A DNA stretch of 64,000 nucleotides. Origin: Lysobacteraceae bacterium (GTDB lineage Bacteria; Bdellovibrionota; UBA1018; JAGTJX01). A model generated the notes under the pieces. The model saw nothing but the letters and a program-made list of their open reading frames with translations, had not been told where the DNA came from and ran no database searches. A program made the translations under genes and the position numbers. Shown here in pieces: positions 25,621 to 33,583 of the stretch. How positions within the stretch are numbered: the stretch's first letter is position 1; every line of letters begins with the position of its first letter. The stretch spans positions 235,090 through 299,089 of the forward strand of contig JAGTJX010000001.1 of assembly GCA_023657465.1 (NCBI GenBank). Reading direction: 5' to 3'.

Positions 25621-27185
25621 AGGTACTCAAAAAATGGATTGAGATAGTCTTTTGATTTTTCAATCACACCATCTAATCCTTTTCCTCCGTCTTCTTTACG
25701 AGTGACGTTTGCAAACGCACGGTCTTCAATGGCTTTGAAGAGTCCCTTTTTCTCAATCATTCTGAGATGAGCTAGTGTTTCATCTAAAACTTTCTGCGCC
25801 CAAGACTCAATCCTACCTTTGGGCTTAAACAAAATTTCATCGCCCAGTGACTTAGCTCCGTTAAAAATATAATTAGCGTTCTTAATACTCATCCAGCGGT
25901 CTTGAAGAAGCGGTGTATGCATCGCCTCTGTCGCCATGCCTAAGAGTTGAATGGATTGACCTGTGAGTACACCTACGAAGTTGAACATCGCATCCATGAG
26001 GTGACTGTAGAAAATATCTCCACACTTAAACCGTGTCGGAGGCATGAACTTAATCGGATGCTCTGGGAAAATCTGACGGGTCATCTGAGCCCTGGCAATC
26101 TCAAGAAGGAATACATCAGGATGCTCCGGATCCATCTCTTGTGCGTGACCTAGACCCATGAGTGACGGAGTCATCTTAGCTCCGAGCGCGAATCTCTCAT
26201 TGATGAACTGAGACGCGAGAACTTGATGACCATTCTCTACAGCATCAGCAGTAGTGAGATAATTGTCTTCACCCGTGTGAATAACAATCTTGGACTTAGC
26301 AATAATTCTACGAGAGAAGTGCTGATCAATCAGCGTTCGCTTCATGTTGATGTCACGGAAGAGTATTCCGTACATTGCATCGTTGAGCAGGAAGTCTAGT
26401 CTTTCCATGGCTCCAAGAGCTGCAATCTCAGACATACAGAGACCTGAGCAATAGTTCGTAAGCCTGATGTAGCGACCAATCTTGCCACCCTCATCATCGA
26501 GCGCTTCGCGCATGATGCGAAAATTTTCCTGTGTAGCATAGGTTCCGCCGTAGCCTTCAGTGGTTGCACCATGTGGAACGAAGTCGAGAAGTGATTGTGC
26601 AGTAGATCTGATCACAGCAATCGCTTCTGCTCCTGCTTGAGCGGCTGCACGCGCTTGAATCACATCATCATAAATATTGCCGGTTGCAACGATCACGTAG
26701 AGAAGTGGGCGTTCCATGCCGTGAGATTTGAACCTGTCGCTTTGCTTCTTCCGAAGCGAGTCTCTGTAGTCACGACGCTCATCAATATGCTCTACAGCTT
26801 CTTTTACTAATTCTTTAGCTTTAGCCTCAATATCTTCATCTTTACTCTTAGGTAATTCAGTAAGTTTAATTTTACGATGAGCGACTGAAGTTCCTAGTTC
26901 TTGAGGAGAGATTTTTGTATAGAGTAAAGCGTTGCAGAACCAATAAAGTACACCGCGGTCTAATACTTTTTGTTTATGTAGATCTTCGACGATGAGATTC
27001 ACTTCAGGAAACCACTGTCCACCCTGTTGCTGAATTGCGCCGTTTACACCGAGTAGTCTCAAAGCTGCGCGCTCAATGGATACAGAAGTATGCTTCTCGA
27101 TGAGTTCTTCAACAGGCTTTGAAACCGTGTGTGCGATCTTCCTACATTCATCGATTTTCTTTTGATCTAGGTTTAAATTAGCCAT
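25617..27185 (-). CDS. kamD: lysine 5,6-aminomutase alpha subunit
   Basis: KamD forms the catalytic barrel of the aminomutase. With the start at MANLNLDQKK (27185) it has 522 residues, close to the known subunit. The open frame extends to 27218, but the family starts near this Met, which overlaps the kdd stop by 8 nt. Typical stretches include VIVATGNIYDDVIQARAAAQ, VPHGATTEGYGGTYATQENF and GEDNYLTTADAVENGHQVLA. The operon order is kdd-kamD-kamE-moxR-vwa. The preceding enzyme KamA (lysine 2,3-aminomutase) is not in the window. Confidence 0.95.
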   Translation of the reverse strand: MANLNLDQKKIDECRKIAHTVSKPVEELIEKHTSVSIERAALRLLGVNGAIQQQGGQWFPEVNLIVEDLHKQKVLDRGVLYWFCNALLYTKISPQELGTSVAHRKIKLTELPKSKDEDIEAKAKELVKEAVEHIDERRDYRDSLRKKQSDRFKSHGMERPLLYVIVATGNIYDDVIQARAAAQAGAEAIAVIRSTAQSLLDFVPHGATTEGYGGTYATQENFRIMREALDDEGGKIGRYIRLTNYCSGLCMSEIAALGAMERLDFLLNDAMYGILFRDINMKRTLIDQHFSRRIIAKSKIVIHTGEDNYLTTADAVENGHQVLASQFINERFALGAKMTPSLMGLGHAQEMDPEHPDVFLLEIARAQMTRQIFPEHPIKFMPPTRFKCGDIFYSHLMDAMFNFVGVLTGQSIQLLGMATEAMHTPLLQDRWMSIKNANYIFNGAKSLGDEILFKPKGRIESWAQKVLDETLAHLRMIEKKGLFKAIEDRAFANVTRKEDGGKGLDGVIEKSKDYLNPFFEYL

Positions 27186-28221
27186 ACACCGTCTCAAATA
27201 GTTTTTTAATTTCTGCACTCTCTCTTAAAACATTAAGAGCCGTATCTGCATGTCCTACGCAGTATCCGTTTCCAATTCTGAGATCCACATCCATACCAAC
27301 GCCCTCAGCGCCTAATGCTGCCTTAGTGAAACTCGTTGCCATCGAGAAGAAGTAGACAATTCCATGCTGTCTGCAAGAGAGGATCGAAGCCATCTCAGTG
27401 TCAGGAATATTTGCGACATTGATCACAACATCTGCCATTTTCCCGTCCGTCACTGTCTTCACCTTCTCCATGATGAGAGTGGATGCACGAGCGTCGCATT
27501 GGATGATTTCGTCAACGAATGAGAACTTCTTCAGTCTCCCTACTGCGGCATCAGAGTATTCGATTGCAATGGTGCGAGTATTTTTCTTCTTCTTCGCTTC
27601 ATAGAGGCAGAGTAGACCCGACTTACCACCACCGCCGATCACTACAACAGTGTCTCCGTCTTTTACTAGCTTCTCTGTCTGCGCAGGAGCTCCTGCAACA
27701 TCAAGCACTGCGAGTGCTACGTTCTCTGGCATGTTGGTCGGAAGACGAGCGAAAATTCCAGAACTAAACAGAATCGCGTGACCTTCGATATCGACTCGGT
27801 CGATTTTGGCGTGAATTTTTTTTATCTTCTTAATCACTAGTGGAGTAAGCGTGAGTGAAACAAGAGTGGCGATACGATCGCCGACTTTGACTGGTTTTTC
27901 TTTCACAGGAAATTCAGAGCCGATTTCTTTCACGCGACCGATCAACATCCCACCCGATCCTGTTACGGGATTGTGATGCTTTCCTCGCCTCTCAACCAAG
28001 TCGAAAATATGTTTTTCGATTCTTGTGATATCACCGCGGCAGTTTTCTGAGATTTGGTGGAAACTTGCTGAATCGATATTGAGTGATTCGACTTCGATGA
28101 GAAGCTCTCCTGCACGAAGTGGGAGAGACGCATCTAACACGTCTGCCTGTTGTGGGAGAGCGCCCTTAGGCACCACTACGCGGCTCAGTCCGAAATAATC
28201 TGAAGATCCACCCATAGTCAT
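27178..28221 (-). CDS. kdd: L-erythro-3,5-diaminohexanoate dehydrogenase
   Basis: Kdd oxidatively deaminates the aminomutase product 3,5-diaminohexanoate with NAD+. The protein (about 347 residues) has the family N-terminus FGLSRVVVPKGALPQQA, the segment SLNIDSASFHQI, a Rossmann loop VVVIGGGGKSGLLCL and a C-terminus rich in conserved Gly. Several in-frame starts exist (28260 TTG, 28236, 28221, 28215). ATG 28221 is preferred because GGTGGCG is suitably spaced, but this is not certain. It heads the operon with kamD overlapping its stop. Direct-repeat copy A lies immediately upstream. Confidence 0.9.
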   Translation of the reverse strand: MTMGGSSDYFGLSRVVVPKGALPQQADVLDASLPLRAGELLIEVESLNIDSASFHQISENCRGDITRIEKHIFDLVERRGKHHNPVTGSGGMLIGRVKEIGSEFPVKEKPVKVGDRIATLVSLTLTPLVIKKIKKIHAKIDRVDIEGHAILFSSGIFARLPTNMPENVALAVLDVAGAPAQTEKLVKDGDTVVVIGGGGKSGLLCLYEAKKKKNTRTIAIEYSDAAVGRLKKFSFVDEIIQCDARASTLIMEKVKTVTDGKMADVVINVANIPDTEMASILSCRQHGIVYFFSMATSFTKAALGAEGVGMDVDLRIGNGYCVGHADTALNVLRESAEIKKLFETVYG

Positions 28222-28256
28222 GAATGTCGCCACCATAGCACAAGGTTGCAGACGCT

Positions 28257-28394
28257 CCAAAACTGAACATCTATTTTATACCTGTTCATGTTGCGTGCAG
28301 TCGCACGCGAATTTTTTCTGCTCTATATAAATTTATCATACGATCGCACACGCACTGACTCGGCACGGCAATTGCTTTAGAAATTTATACGAAC
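28257..28394. repeat. 138-bp direct repeat, copy A
   Basis: This segment matches 30533-30670 without gaps and in the same orientation, with about 18 differences by hand alignment (roughly 87 percent identity). It includes a dyad GCGTGC-AGTC-GCACGC (about 28293-28308), a second related half-site TCGCACACGC and a sigma-54-like promoter. It lies directly ahead of the kdd operon (opposite strand) and upstream of the hydroxylase-like gene. The remaining bases to 28546 hold no gene and no further structure that I can see. Confidence 0.9.
28361..28376 (+). promoter_or_regulatory. sigma-54 promoter match in repeat copy A
   Basis: CGGCAC-GGCAA-TTGCT fits the TGGCAC-N5-TTGCW consensus at 10 of 11 defined positions, with GG (28362-28363) and GC (28374-28375) separated by exactly 10 nt. 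Transcription would begin near 28387 and run to the hydroxylase-like gene at 28547. The upstream dyad could bind an enhancer-binding activator. Confidence 0.6.
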
Positions 28395-28546
28395 TTAAGT
28401 TTTGATCGTCAAAGCAAAGAGTTTCGAACCCAGGTGTGCTTGGAAAACATTAGGTTGTTGGTTGTGGTTAATACCTACCATATTTGTAGATAAAAATCCC
28501 AAAATTAATATAACACCCTCGTTAAACTTCAGGTAAAATAGAAGGG

Positions 28547-29335
28547 ATGCAGAAAGCTGTATTGATACAACTCACGTTGGGTCTGATCCGGTACCTAGTA
28601 CTAGGGATAGGAGTTTTTTTCTTGTTTTGGATTTGGGGCAAAAAACGTTTTTTGCATCGAAAAATTCAAAAGCCAGATTTTAATGTCAAGCAAGCTAAGA
28701 CTGAAGTCCTTCAATCGCTAAGGACAGTGCTTATCTTCGGGGTGATCGCTGGGATTTCATATTGGGGATATGAAAAAGGATACTTGCAGATATACCAAGA
28801 TATTTCTTTGCACAGTACCGGCTATTGGTGGTTTACGGTTTTAGCAATGGTCTTAATACAGGACACATACTTTTACTGGACACATCGTTTTTTGCACCTA
28901 CCAGGAGTGTACGAGCGATTTCACTTAGCTCACCACACGTCCTATAATCCATCACCGCTTGCAATTTACTCGTTTCATCCAGTGGAAGCCTTCATCAATG
29001 GAGCCATCGTTCCCTGTGTGGCTTTTTTGATGCCACTTCATTTTGGCGCTATAGCTACCTTTATTTTAATCTCGACCATTTTCAATTCTATTGGGCACTT
29101 GGGGTATGAAGTTTATGGTAGGCGATTTATCAAATCAGGCCTTTATCGATGGGTGATTGGCGCCACTCATCATAATATTCATCACAAGTATTCAAAAGAG
29201 AACTACGGATTTTATTTTAGATTTTGGGACAAACTCATGTCGAGTGAATCTGTTGACTACGAAAAAAATCTTCTAGAAAAAGAGAATCTCGCCTTCATAG
29301 GGAAATCCAAAGTTATTGTAGATACAGGTGCTTGA
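28547..29335 (+). CDS. fatty acid hydroxylase / sterol desaturase superfamily membrane protein
   Basis: A 262-residue membrane protein with at least four hydrophobic segments and the di-iron histidine clusters of this superfamily in order: THRFLH, FHLAHH and the C-terminal THHNIHH. Members hydroxylate or desaturate lipids; bacterial homologues act on membrane lipids, ornithine lipids or carotenoids, and the substrate here cannot be told. It stands alone between the two 138-bp repeats, upstream of a decayed transposase, and looks like accessory cargo. The AAGGG ribosome site is very close to the ATG. Confidence 0.88.
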   Translation: MQKAVLIQLTLGLIRYLVLGIGVFFLFWIWGKKRFLHRKIQKPDFNVKQAKTEVLQSLRTVLIFGVIAGISYWGYEKGYLQIYQDISLHSTGYWWFTVLAMVLIQDTYFYWTHRFLHLPGVYERFHLAHHTSYNPSPLAIYSFHPVEAFINGAIVPCVAFLMPLHFGAIATFILISTIFNSIGHLGYEVYGRRFIKSGLYRWVIGATHHNIHHKYSKENYGFYFRFWDKLMSSESVDYEKNLLEKENLAFIGKSKVIVDTGA

Positions 29336-29545
29336 GAAAATTCTGGCTTTGATAAGTTTAAGGGTGGCTTCGCCCTTGAGGATCCATTCTTTACAACCTT
29401 TCAGCGAATTGAACTCTTTGCTGATTCTTGGCATTTCTGCTTTGGTTGACCTTACCATGGCTGCGGTAACCTTGGTTTTCTCTTGATCGACTTGAGAGCT
29501 TTCAAGAATTGGAAAAAGAAAAAAAATGGGTAGGACGTAGTTCAT
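29273..29545 (-). CDS. short ORF with signal-like N-terminus, doubtful
   Basis: A 90-codon frame beginning with a hydrophobic leader (LPIFFLFPILESSQ) followed by about 55 polar residues (EKTKVTAAMVRSTKAEM and so on). Its last third overlaps the hydroxylase-like gene antisense and does not look like protein. It may be the N-terminal remnant of an exported protein cut off when the hydroxylase gene arrived. No ribosome site is clear. Confidence 0.3.
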   Translation of the reverse strand: MNYVLPIFFLFPILESSQVDQEKTKVTAAMVRSTKAEMPRISKEFNSLKGCKEWILKGEATLKLIKARIFSSTCIYNNFGFPYEGEILFF

Positions 29546-29678
29546 AGCTTACGCAGAGCTATAAAAGAGACGCTCTTAGTGTAAGTACCAAAGAGTGGAA
29601 TCTAGCTCAAAAAATGTGAAGTAATAATAGATATAGAAGAGATGAGGTCCTAACTCAGAGTCTGGTACGATGAAGTTC

Positions 29679-30520
29679 TAACAAAACGCCGTACAAACCA
29701 AGAGAAGGACCTCGAGGATGAGTATACCTAGATTTTTGCGTTCTGCATTCGCAGGATATGAAATTTTTGAAATAAAAGAGTGTTTGAGTGAACAGAGAAT
29801 CTGTTTATGGGTCAAAGCGGAAGAGAATGAGGAAGCACTTTGCCATAGATGCAGATCTCCCATCCATTGCGATGGCAAATACTTGCAAAAAATTCAATGC
29901 ATGCCAGTGATGGGACTCAGAGTGGAAGTCACACTCACCAGAAGGAGAGGACACTGTACAGGCTGCAAGAAATCCCGAGCTGAACAAGTGGAATGGCTCA
30001 GTGAGGAGACACCACGAGATTCGCATGCAGTTACACACCGAGTTCGCTAGCGGATCTCCTCTGCATAGGCTGACCAGAGGCAAGTACATCTATTTGAAGA
30101 AAGACTCGAGACGAACACAACACGAGAAGCGACTGATTGAAGATGTCACAGCAGAGAATGAATACTTTTTGCGACTAGAACTCATCAAAGAACGAATGTT
30201 TCATTTCTTTAATGCTGCTACTGAAGAAGAAGCCAAACATATCTTCGATGAAGTTGGTGAATGGATCTATAGATCTGGGTTCACGAGACAGATGGACTGG
30301 CACAACAGGCTAGAGAGGTCTTGGAGCACACTCAAGAACTACTTTAGACACAGAATTACTTCTGCGACTTCTGAAGGAATCAATAACGTCATCAAGGCTC
30401 TCATCAGAAGAGCGTATGGATACAGAAATATGCAGTATTTTAAGCTCAAAATCATGCAAGTCTGTGGCTATCTCAACTCCCAATTCTGTCCTCTAATGAA
30501 ATCAACTACTTAACAAAACG
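29679..30520 (+). mobile_element. decayed ISL3-like insertion element
   Basis: The interval carries the two ends of an ISL3-type transposase. TAACAAAACG occurs at both borders (29679-29688 and 30511-30520), which may be a duplicated target or chance, since I find no matching inverted repeats. GAGGTCCT (29644-29651) and AGGACCTC (29706-29713) form an inverted repeat near the left side. The element cannot move on its own because the central part of its transposase is gone. Confidence 0.55.
29718..30513 (+). pseudogene. ISL3 family transposase, internally deleted
   Basis: The first 110 codons encode the N-terminal zinc finger of ISL3 transposases (CHRCRSP followed by GHCTGCKKS). From about 30050, in another frame, the C-terminal part resumes (RGKYIYLKK, TSATSEGINNVIKALIRRAYG and RNMQYFKLKIMQVCG). 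The intervening region of roughly 150 residues that holds the first two catalytic Asp residues is missing, and the halves are out of frame. The gene is therefore a non-functional remnant. Full-length relatives have about 400 residues. Confidence 0.85.
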
Positions 30521-30532
30521 TGAGGAAGAGAC

Positions 30533-30670
30533 CCAAAACTGATCATCTATTTTACACCTGTTCATGTTGTGTGCAGTCGCACGCGAAGTTTTTCTGCTCT
30601 ATTCGAATTTATCCTACGATCGCACAAGTGCCTACTCGGCATGGCAATTGCTTTAGTAGTTCGTACGAAC
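30533..30670. repeat. 138-bp direct repeat, copy B
   Basis: This is the second copy of the repeat at 28257-28394, in the same orientation and without gaps. Both copies keep the dyad around GTGCAGTCGCAC, the ACGATCGCACA half-site and the sigma-54-like promoter core, while differences cluster between these elements. Copy B lies right after the transposase remnant and 26 nt before an exported-protein gene. Confidence 0.9.
30637..30652 (+). promoter_or_regulatory. sigma-54 promoter match in repeat copy B
   Basis: CGGCAT-GGCAA-TTGCT keeps GG (30638-30639) and GC (30650-30651) at the required 10-nt spacing. The -12 half is perfect and the -24 half matches 4 of 6. Transcription would start near 30663, about 33 nt before the ATG of the exported-protein gene. 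Confidence 0.55.
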
Positions 30671-30695: not shown

Positions 30696-31481
30696 ATGAA
30701 GAAGTACGCAATAGTAGCTAGTTTATTAGCCCTTTCATCCCCACTTGCTCACGCGATGAGTGATTATGAGTTGGCAGGATTCTGTGAAGACAAACAAACC
30801 GCACTTCAAAATGCATATAGAACAAGTGTTTCATCACTAGAACTTGCTTCAAAAAATGCAAAAGATCTTGGTGCAGAAGTCGTGGAACTCATGAAACCAA
30901 ATATGGAAGCAGCCCTAAAATTAAAGGGCAGATTTAATGAAGACAAACTTACCACTATGGAAAAAATTAAAAACTACAGAGATGAAGTAAACTCCGTCAA
31001 ACCTGAGTCTCTTCAAAACAATTCTAGATATTTATATGAGATGCTTGTGAAGCATGGAATAGAACGTACGTTCGCACAAGACGCTTGGTCATCGTGCGAT
31101 CTTTTTCTAAACGCACTGACTTCGTTAGAGAAGAAGTTTCGATTTTGGGACTCACCCGTTCCACAAGTCAAAAAAGCTTTAAAATCAAAGCTCTCTGAAA
31201 ATGGTGCTGATGAAGATAATTCAAAAGTCATTGATAAATTCGCTAGGAAAGGTTCTGTTTTAGAAATCCCTGTATCTATTCAAGACGGGACTGATTATTC
31301 AGGTCGGACACTGAATAGAGAATCCACAATTCTTCTAAAGCTAGGGACAGATGGAATTGAAGTGAATGTGAAAAACTCTAAAGCTGTTTTTTCTGAGCCA
31401 ACTGCTACCGAAAAAGAGTTCTCCGACTCAGAGATCAGAAAAACATTTCCAGAGTGCGTAGAGTATTTAGGAATAAAGTAA
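30696..31481 (+). CDS. exported protein, unknown
   Basis: A 261-residue protein with a clear signal peptide (KKYAIVASLLALSSPLAHA, cleavage after AHA). The mature first half is helical with a possible disulfide (Cys in LAGFCED and SSCDLF). The second half is strand-rich (SVLEIPVSIQDG, STILLKLGTDGIEVNVK). A third late Cys lies in FPECVEY. A GGAGG ribosome site is present. I do not recognise the family. It follows a sigma-54-like promoter in repeat copy B and ends at a strong terminator. Confidence 0.75.
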   Translation: MKKYAIVASLLALSSPLAHAMSDYELAGFCEDKQTALQNAYRTSVSSLELASKNAKDLGAEVVELMKPNMEAALKLKGRFNEDKLTTMEKIKNYRDEVNSVKPESLQNNSRYLYEMLVKHGIERTFAQDAWSSCDLFLNALTSLEKKFRFWDSPVPQVKKALKSKLSENGADEDNSKVIDKFARKGSVLEIPVSIQDGTDYSGRTLNRESTILLKLGTDGIEVNVKNSKAVFSEPTATEKEFSDSEIRKTFPECVEYLGIK

Positions 31482-31546: not shown

Positions 31547-31673
31547 AGTTTTAAAACTGTCTAAACTTTAAACACCCGTCAGGTTCTTAAACTCTTCTCT
31601 CACCCTGTGTCCGCACTGACACCTTTTATCCTTATGAAATTACAGCGTTTTTTCAGCTGATCAAACCCCCACC

Positions 31674-31691
31674 TTGGCACAACCCATGCAA
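31674..31691 (+). promoter_or_regulatory. sigma-54 promoter upstream of Gln/Met-rich exported protein
   Basis: TTGGCAC-AACCC-ATGCAA has GG (31676-31677) and GC (31688-31689) with exactly 10 nt between. The -24 half is perfect and the -12 half has one change (ATGC for TTGC). Transcription would start near 31701, ahead of an AGGAG site and ATG at 31733. The 5' flank contains CCGCACTGAC, similar to CGCACTGAC in repeat copy A. Confidence 0.6.
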
Positions 31692-31732: not shown

Positions 31733-33583
31733 ATGAAAACGACAAAACTATTAGCTTTGGCATCCATTTTTGGTGGTCTTCAAGCATATGCACAAGGCCC
31801 AGTTGCAATGAGTACGATTATAGCCAACTCAGACGTTGGAAGTGATCTCCCCGTCGATCCAGCCGCAACCCTCGTTCAGGGTAAAGCCAAGGCAGAAGCC
31901 CTCTTCACCAACTTCGGCGTAAGAAAACTTTCAAACGGATCCTATATGCTTTTAGGAACCATCCCTTCTGAGTGCGCTACTCACATCACCCTCAGTCCAA
32001 TCAGCGCACCAGTTGTTATGAATGATAAGTTTGCTGGTGGATGGGTTGTCGAAGACAAAAGTGGTGCTGGACAAGCATGCGTAGACTTATTCCAAGCCAA
32101 CAAAAAAACATGTAATGCAAGAGATTGCGTATCTATTAGCAAAATCAAAGGCTCACAGTACTCACTTTCAGACATCGACACTGACGGTCTTTCAGACGAG
32201 CAAGTCAAAGCTCTTCCTGATTTGAAAATTGGTTTGTTCTGGAGAGATGACCAACAAGACACTGGATCACCTACATACATCCAAGCTGAGTCTATTGATG
32301 AGAAAGTGACTTTCACTTCTCCATCAATCGAAACTGTCAAAATCAAAGAAGCTGCGGTTAAAGCTGAACAAGAAAAAATTGAAGGACTAAAAAGCGACGT
32401 TGCTGAGTGTATCGACAAAGGCACAGGCGTCGATGAAGCGAAGAAAGCGATTCGCGCACTTGAAAAACTCGGCGAACAACTTGGCGGTTATACAAAAGCT
32501 CAAGCAAAAGAAAAATTAGCAGAAATCGAAGATGCTCAATTCAAAGCAGATATTGCAGCAGCTTACGAAGGAGCACTTGCTGACAGAAACACCATCATCA
32601 AGAATGTGAATAAATGGTTGAAGAAAAGACCAAAAGCAATTGATGAGATTGCAGATGCAAGGCTTGAGATAGTAAAGCGTCTCTTAAGCGGGACAGAACT
32701 CACTGAAGCAGAAGATGTTAATGGTGTGACTCGTGAAGATAACGAGGAAGCCTACAAACTTCTCGTGAACACTGGACGTCTCCGTGGAATATCAAAAACT
32801 AAGTCGCAAGACATCGCAGTTCAGATTGCTGCACTCAATAGCAAAGTGATTAATGAGTACGCAGCTACTGGAAATCTCTCATCAAGAGATCTTCTCAAAG
32901 CAACAGCTCCTCTCGATGCGAAGATGAATCGCGTGTGCTCACCACAAAGCTTGCTTCAGATCAGACAGATGTCTCAGCAGTCCATGACTTATCAGAACAA
33001 CTCACAGATGGGTTTAGGTTTCGGAATTCAAGCTCATACTTACGGAGGCATGAACAATGGATACGGCATGCAACAGCAGCAGTATCTCCCACAACAACAA
33101 AGCAGTCAGTATAACGATACTGAATGTTGGGGTGCTTATCAGCAGAAGCAACAGCTTGTTCAGCTAAAAGCTCAGTCTGATCAAGTAAGACAAAACAAAA
33201 TTTTTGCTGCACAGAACCCAGGCTATCAGCCAACAGCTCCGATTGTTCCAAACGGATTTCAACAAGTGACTTCTAATTTGTTCTCCACACAGCAAGGAAT
33301 GCAACCCCAACAACAGGGTGGAATGTGGAACAACAATCCAGAAATGCAAAGTCCAATGATGGGTCCATCGAATACATTCAATCCAAATTCTATGATGATG
33401 TATCAGAACCCAATGATGCAGCAACAGATGATGTATCAACAAATGCCTTATGCTTATGGAATGCCTGGATTCAACACGGGAGTAAGATTCAACACAGGAG
33501 TTGGATTAAACCTCGGATTTGGCGCTGGATTTAATCCAATGAGTCAATACGGCAACTATGGAATGCAATACTACGGCGGATAG
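31733..33583 (+). CDS. large exported protein with Gln/Met/Asn/Gly-rich C-terminus
   Basis: A 616-residue protein with a signal peptide (LLALASIFGGLQAYAQG). The mature N-terminal domain (about residues 25-200) is strand-rich with several cysteines. A helical, Lys/Glu/Ala-rich middle (200-390) looks like coiled coil. From about residue 405 the sequence becomes low in complexity: runs of Gln, Met, Asn, Gly, Tyr and Pro such as MQQQQYLPQQQSSQY and NPMMQQQMMYQQMPY. It ends in Gly/Phe/Asn-rich repeats (GFNTGVRFNTGVGLNLGFG). It is probably a secreted or surface protein. The family is not recognised. AGGAG lies 9 nt before the ATG, with a sigma-54 promoter upstream. Confidence 0.75.
   Translation: MKTTKLLALASIFGGLQAYAQGPVAMSTIIANSDVGSDLPVDPAATLVQGKAKAEALFTNFGVRKLSNGSYMLLGTIPSECATHITLSPISAPVVMNDKFAGGWVVEDKSGAGQACVDLFQANKKTCNARDCVSISKIKGSQYSLSDIDTDGLSDEQVKALPDLKIGLFWRDDQQDTGSPTYIQAESIDEKVTFTSPSIETVKIKEAAVKAEQEKIEGLKSDVAECIDKGTGVDEAKKAIRALEKLGEQLGGYTKAQAKEKLAEIEDAQFKADIAAAYEGALADRNTIIKNVNKWLKKRPKAIDEIADARLEIVKRLLSGTELTEAEDVNGVTREDNEEAYKLLVNTGRLRGISKTKSQDIAVQIAALNSKVINEYAATGNLSSRDLLKATAPLDAKMNRVCSPQSLLQIRQMSQQSMTYQNNSQMGLGFGIQAHTYGGMNNGYGMQQQQYLPQQQSSQYNDTECWGAYQQKQQLVQLKAQSDQVRQNKIFAAQNPGYQPTAPIVPNGFQQVTSNLFSTQQGMQPQQQGGMWNNNPEMQSPMMGPSNTFNPNSMMMYQNPMMQQQMMYQQMPYAYGMPGFNTGVRFNTGVGLNLGFGAGFNPMSQYGNYGMQYYGG

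Follow-up and report, generated by a model that had tools for sequence, protein, structure and literature searches.

What is the 138-bp module that occurs twice in the window, the 64,000-nt stretch of DNA analyzed here, and why do its two copies lie where they do? Copies A (28257 to 28394) and B (30533 to 30670), both read on the plus strand, are ungapped direct repeats that are identical at 120 of 138 positions (87%, with 18 differences), as the sequence-only reading of this DNA had described them. A DNA search of the whole 2.83-Mb genome retrieved the module only as A and B (E values of 2e-67 and 1e-42), the next match falling in the noise (E 2.2), and no copy was recovered by DNA search from 57 relatives of the same order or class. 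The many genomic copies lacking a promoter core that a plain repeat would lead one to expect were thus sought in vain: A and B are the only copies, and each has a core. We consider it probable that the two are a duplicated sigma-54 promoter unit, composed of tandem 19-bp enhancer dyads and a -24/-12 core.

The core of copy A, CGGCACGGCAATTGCT, occupies 28361 to 28376 on the plus strand, with a predicted start near 28387, and that of copy B, CGGCATGGCAATTGCT, occupies 30637 to 30652 on the same strand, with a predicted start near 30663; the exact GG-N10-GC spacing that had been claimed for both is indeed present. A third sigma-54 promoter, C, with the core TGGCACAACCCATGCA, is predicted at 31675 to 31690 (plus strand). 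All three have the -24 GG and the -12 GC with 10 bases between them in a context near TGGCAC-N5-TTGC, from which A and B depart in having a C for the first T and C in having ATGC. The genome encodes RpoN (PF04552, E 2.2e-65) and about 18 strong matches to sigma-54 activators (PF00158), and GGCRNGNNNNTTGCW occurs 36 times in it versus 9 times for the reversed control. The near-consensus cores, the sigma factor, its activators and the enrichment of -24/-12 sites all speak for the promoter reading, and A and B look like sigma-54 promoters, their sigma-54 dependence and expression being predictions from sequence. Other sigma-54-like cores precede lpxC-like and single-strand-binding-protein-like genes by 40 to 50 nt (L029 and L030, near 1501); such genes are unusual sigma-54 targets.

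Like the sigma-54 promoters of the NtrC/NifA type that have upstream activating sequences (UAS), the promoters studied here combine an exact GG-N10-GC -24/-12 core, in a genome with rpoN and activators, with an inverted-repeat enhancer about 70 to 160 nt upstream. They differ from that type in having CTGTCTAAANTTTAGACAG as the candidate enhancer, frequently in the form of contiguous 19-bp pairs, and in that most of the genes code for exported proteins. The 19-bp dyad is common to the promoters of relatives, where it lies mostly 100 to 150 nt upstream of the core. We described it by a matrix for which the 14 training sites all came from relatives, namely, their sigma-54 promoters divergent from the lysine fermentation gene kdd. 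The training sites were the best matches to a consensus that had been derived by eye using these same promoters, so the fit of the matrix to kdd-divergent promoters is no test of it; the tests are a sample of the genome itself and the flanks of insertion sequences (IS) considered below.

The genome sample comprised 864 kb, made up of 800 kb in regular stretches plus the window, and amounted to 31% of the genome. Within these 864 kb, a sigma-54 core lay within 160 nt of 6 of 11 intergenic motif sites (4/9 after repeated copies were merged), whereas it did so for none of the 27 coding sites; against a background of 0.7% per strand, the association has p=5e-6. The dyad is often followed directly, at +19, by a weaker second one. 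When unique contiguous 19-bp pairs were ranked by summed score, 9 of the best 12, that of copy B included, had a core 74 to 118 nt downstream; this count, like the other regulon figures, comes from the 31% sample, and both the tandem 19-bp architecture and the link with the IS are post hoc observations. Judged by eye, the genes behind these UAS promoters mostly start with a signal peptide or a lipoprotein signal. The genome also has three copies of an identical UAS-promoter unit, CTGTCTAAAGTTTTTACAG and TGGCGCAAGACCTGCA at 69 nt (L214:12713, L214:19805, and L215:14632).

In both copies of the module, the tandem pair starts 98 nt upstream of the core. The pair of copy B, CTGATCATCTATTTTACAC-CTGTTCATGTTGTGTGCAG (30539 to 30576, plus strand), scores 4.0 and 8.6, and only three pairs as good, B included, exist in 1.72 million sampled positions. 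The corresponding UAS-like pair of copy A, two contiguous 19-mers at 28263 to 28300 on the plus strand, is eroded (-3.1 and 3.2), a weak match that 22 pairs equal in 1.72 million positions; over these 38 bases A and B differ three times, and all three differences favor B. Promoter C has CTGTCTAAACTTTAAACAC together with a weaker contiguous 19-mer (31557 to 31594, plus strand; scores of 22.1 and -2.2). An enhancer of the kind expected upstream of sigma-54 promoters is accordingly present for B and C and weak for A. On comparative evidence, the candidate enhancer lies just to the left of, and overlaps, the dyad that had been taken for an activator site, and the contiguous 19-bp pair at the left edge of each copy is the better-supported candidate.

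That other dyad, GCGTGC-AGTC-GCACGC, is found at 28293 to 28308 in A and at 30569 to 30584 in B. In copy A, TTGCGTGC-AGTC-GCACGCGA followed by A(T)6 (28291 to 28316, plus strand) constitutes a terminator-like hairpin that overlaps the second UAS in its right half, and a hairpin scan detected its terminator-like counterpart, with G-U pairs, at 30567 to 30592 (plus strand) in copy B. A GC-rich hairpin followed by a run of T is the form of an intrinsic terminator, and it is not far-fetched, if still short of our expectation, that the dyad acts as one, the module being a terminator-promoter spacer that would insulate the sigma-54 promoter from upstream transcription. Both copies have an 8-pair stem, a 4-nt loop and a T tract, with folding energies of -12.4 and -10.5 kcal/mol (z scores of -2.75 and -2.11), and a C-to-T change in B retains a G-U pair. 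On the other hand, although a transposase remnant precedes the dyad of B, copy A has no gene upstream of it on that strand, and since a terminator-like score was also obtained for a dyad ahead of promoter C (31607), false positives of the scan must be expected in this region. A terminator can hold together with the duplicated enhancer-promoter unit that we favor.

The sequence-only reading had instead combined this dyad with a half-site, ACGATCGCACA (28340 to 28350 on the plus strand of copy A), as the binding site of an activator, which would have to be private to promoters A and B; we regard this as unlikely. Both elements do occur in the two copies, the ACGATCGCACA element being identical in the repeat alignment, and the dyad is centered about 87 nt ahead of the predicted start. 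In both copies, moreover, the TCGCAC half is repeated 43 nt downstream, or about four helical turns, for which reason we keep a binding site under consideration. Its role as an activator site did not hold up, however, since the dyad recurs at no other sigma-54 promoter examined: with one mismatch allowed it was present at no other sigma-54-like site, no further copies of dyad plus promoter core were found in the genome, and nearly all of the other sigma-54-like sites examined lack the TCGCAC half upstream. The dyad also overlaps the tandem UAS common to other promoters and forms the hairpin described above, and as to its function, the terminator may be placed ahead of the binding site. A perfect GCGTGCGTTCGCACGC dyad at C1:422752 (L045 and L081) is inside a coding frame and is a chance match.

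Copy A adjoins, as had been stated, the start of the kdd operon on the opposite strand: kdd (27181 to 28242, minus strand; NCBIfam NF052381, E 7.6e-76), for the L-erythro-3,5-diaminohexanoate dehydrogenase of a lysine fermentation operon, is divergent from it and is followed by lysine 5,6-aminomutase. Its supposed target, a fatty-acid-hydroxylase family gene (28547 to 29335, plus strand; PF04116, E 1.4e-26), begins about 160 nt past promoter A, and because of this long leader and the eroded enhancer, it is doubtful that copy A drives it. In copy B, by comparison, the predicted leader is about 33 nt and is followed, after a ribosome-binding site, by the gene for a 261-aa protein with predicted export (30696 to 31481, plus strand), consistent with the proposal that B serves an exported protein; no relatives of this protein were found in the 57 related genomes or in the wider genome contigs searched. 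Copy A has TATAAA on the minus strand at window positions 28275 to 28280, at the -10 position of kdd, where copy B has TGTAAA; it is possible that copy A is retained as the promoter of kdd.

Comparison of kdd, which is approximately 62 to 73% identical in most of the order relatives having it, and whose closest named locus is in a Bacteriovoracaceae metagenome-assembled genome (68%), relates this genome to the Bacteriovoracaceae. In many relatives, a divergent sigma-54 promoter, typically TTGGCCCACCCCTTGCT, lies upstream of kdd or of its same-strand neighbor and is followed by an exported protein. Promoter C reproduces this arrangement, with CTGTCTAAACTTTAAACAC at 31557 and the core at 31675 in the UAS-promoter order of the kdd-divergent relatives, and the gene for a 616-aa exported protein behind it (31733 to 33583, plus strand) is related to some of the kdd-divergent exported proteins of relatives (phmmer E 1.4e-9, to an L093 protein, and 1.9e-5). 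By these signs, C is the conserved kdd-region promoter. Because it shows the kdd-divergent order of UAS, core and exported protein seen in relatives, we infer from synteny that the segment comprising A, the hydroxylase gene, the IS, B and the 261-aa protein gene is a lineage-specific insertion between kdd and C, which are neighbors in relatives. That copy A might be a relic of the ancestral kdd-divergent promoter was considered and rejected: it is C that carries the conserved UAS, and it is C's gene that is the related one. Promoter C, the origin of the region by insertion and the IS remnant had all been missed in the earlier note.

This remnant is an ISL3-type IS (29597 to 30532, plus strand) whose right end abuts copy B. 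Its transposase belongs to the DDE_Tnp_ISL3 family (PF01610, E 1.8e-22) but is not intact, about 470 nt being deleted inside, and full-length members exist elsewhere in the genome, the intact copies having 1,413 nt and a 456-codon frame. At the position expected for the target duplication to its right is CCAAAACT (30533 to 30540, plus strand), which its left counterpart, CAAAGAGT, does not match exactly, so there is no exact duplication at the window IS. Duplications of 8 bp are seen at C1:404471, at C2:880983 and in five homologues. The two intact copies in this genome have the duplications CTACCACT and AGCTTTTC, directly next to which are the enhancer pairs GTCTAATCCCTAGACAC-CTGTTCGAAGCCTATCCAG and GACTAAAAGTTGGACAC-CTGTTAGAGTTATGGGCAG, respectively. 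The window copy has the same register, with the IS ending at 30532, then CCAAAACT and then GATCATCTATTTTACAC-CTGTTCATGTTGTGTGCAG. A sigma-54-like core is present 69 to 105 nt past the IS end in all four copies of this genome (the distance in the window being taken from coordinates), the fourth, C2:546808, having no recognizable UAS. The latter (C2:546808 to 547747; L040 and L078) is 99% identical to the window copy, lacks a target duplication or clear UAS and has TGGCACACGATCTGCA 69 nt beyond it; it shares the internal deletion of the window copy, which suggests mobilization of the deleted form in trans. The IS flanks on C1 and C2 (L041 and L042) have TTTATCCAC(A/T) about 28 nt ahead of the sigma-54 core, and TTTATCCTAC is found at this spacing in copy B; these elements resemble a DnaA box or a site for a bending protein.

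The association extends beyond this genome. Homologues of the transposase were found in other genomes of the phylum Bdellovibrionota, and in their right flanks, a motif score of at least 8 was reached in 11 of 20 testable cases, versus 4 of 547 control windows taken from the same loci (p=5e-15). From exact duplications at L160, L161, L163, L171 and L187, the insertion point is the dyad's first G, with an ambiguity of 1 to 2 nt in the target alignment and a degenerate dyad at L161. A sigma-54-like core follows 5 of 22 right flanks versus 2 of 104 control windows (p=0.002), by a narrow core pattern that leaves out the GTGC cores of the present genome. Several relatives (L160, L162, L163 and L187) showed no sigma-54 core past the UAS, and there the dyad may serve another promoter type. 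The genes neighboring the IS homologues code mostly for exported proteins, and across the right flanks L159 to L188, ISL3-type insertions were observed to end one target duplication from a dyad that resembles CTGTCTAAANTTTAGACAG and precedes genes for exported proteins. In the most divergent homologues (L184 and L185, at about 30% identity) the junction has no dyad, and for this reason dyad specificity seems to belong to a subclade of the IS.

This ISL3-type family appears to home to sigma-54 enhancers. On insertion of the IS, the 3' end of the transposase gene would point toward the enhancer dyad, from which it would be separated by a single 8-bp target duplication; insertion in this one orientation would leave the enhancer-promoter unit intact and spare the host gene, and the window IS would sit against B owing to the same habit. 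The dyad itself would direct transposition, in that the transposase may either read it or be guided by the activator bound to it. That a Bdellovibrionota clade of ISL3-type transposons uses sigma-54 enhancers as its attachment site under the guidance of the bound enhancer-binding protein is a more tentative proposal, which we judge possible rather than likely. There is some likeness between the right end of the IS, which reads GTCTC inward, and the dyad, which reads GTCTAA, such that the transposase might simply recognize end-like sequence; the IS would then have no enhancer targeting as such, surviving intergenically upstream of promoters, with the motif likeness reflecting a dyad that resembles its end (GTCT). 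We think this quite unlikely, because the far half of the dyad is conserved too (C at position 15 in 8/8 and G at position 13 in 6/8), the position is fixed to within 1 to 2 nt with constant orientation, and the dyad is absent from left flanks and distant windows.

The IS also bears on how the repeat is to be delimited. On its left side, copy B begins with the first base past the IS end at 30532, and this boundary is therefore the junction of an insertion and not the limit of a functional unit, which explains where the repeat starts in copy B. Selection on a complete 138-bp regulatory unit, as had been proposed, is not borne out, nor is the clustering of differences between elements more than a weak trend: A and B differ at 2 of 43 element bases and 16 of 95 other bases (Fisher p=0.058, for elements defined post hoc), and the differences are not clustered by position (p=0.60). 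Protection of the elements by selection was dropped as not significant. These figures would also fit a plain duplication in which neither copy is functional any more and the promoter matches are inherited relics, but this is improbable given that both cores are still near consensus and that B has a tandem UAS, a ribosome-binding site and an exported-protein gene, like the rest of the regulon.

Under the duplicated enhancer-promoter unit that we favor, an enhancer-binding protein would bind the tandem dyad and activate the sigma-54 polymerase at B and C, with perhaps a weak effect at A. The unit would belong to a larger regulon of this genome in which mostly exported proteins are switched on. 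Copy B, its better-preserved member, would drive the 261-aa exported protein; copy A, with its core kept and its enhancer weakened, would now form the kdd upstream region and, at a distance, the leader of the hydroxylase gene.

As is typical of the ISL3 family, the elements described here have a DDE_Tnp_ISL3 transposase, a single transposase ORF and, in intact copies, an 8-bp target duplication; they differ from it in that the insertion point is tied to an enhancer dyad and the orientation is fixed. Transposons with fixed target sites include Tn7 at attTn7, Tn5053/Tn402 at res sites and IS1397 at REP palindromes. Like them, the IS studied here would home to a recurrent target, be it one that leaves host genes unharmed or a palindrome; unlike them, it has as its target a putative transcriptional enhancer of sigma-54 promoters. 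We found nothing on point in the open-access literature on insertion specificity of ISL3 elements for an enhancer dyad or on the targeting of enhancers by IS, nor on sigma-54 in Bdellovibrio or on lysine aminomutase with sigma-54; almost nothing was found there on sigma-54 promoters in predatory-type bacteria. The tandem 19-bp dyads provide a sequence-defined candidate sigma-54 enhancer for an exported-protein regulon in such bacteria. If the attachment-site proposal is true, a transcription activator would double as a transposon targeting factor. The landing sites of the IS mark these candidate enhancers, so that insertions may serve as independent pointers to the regulon.
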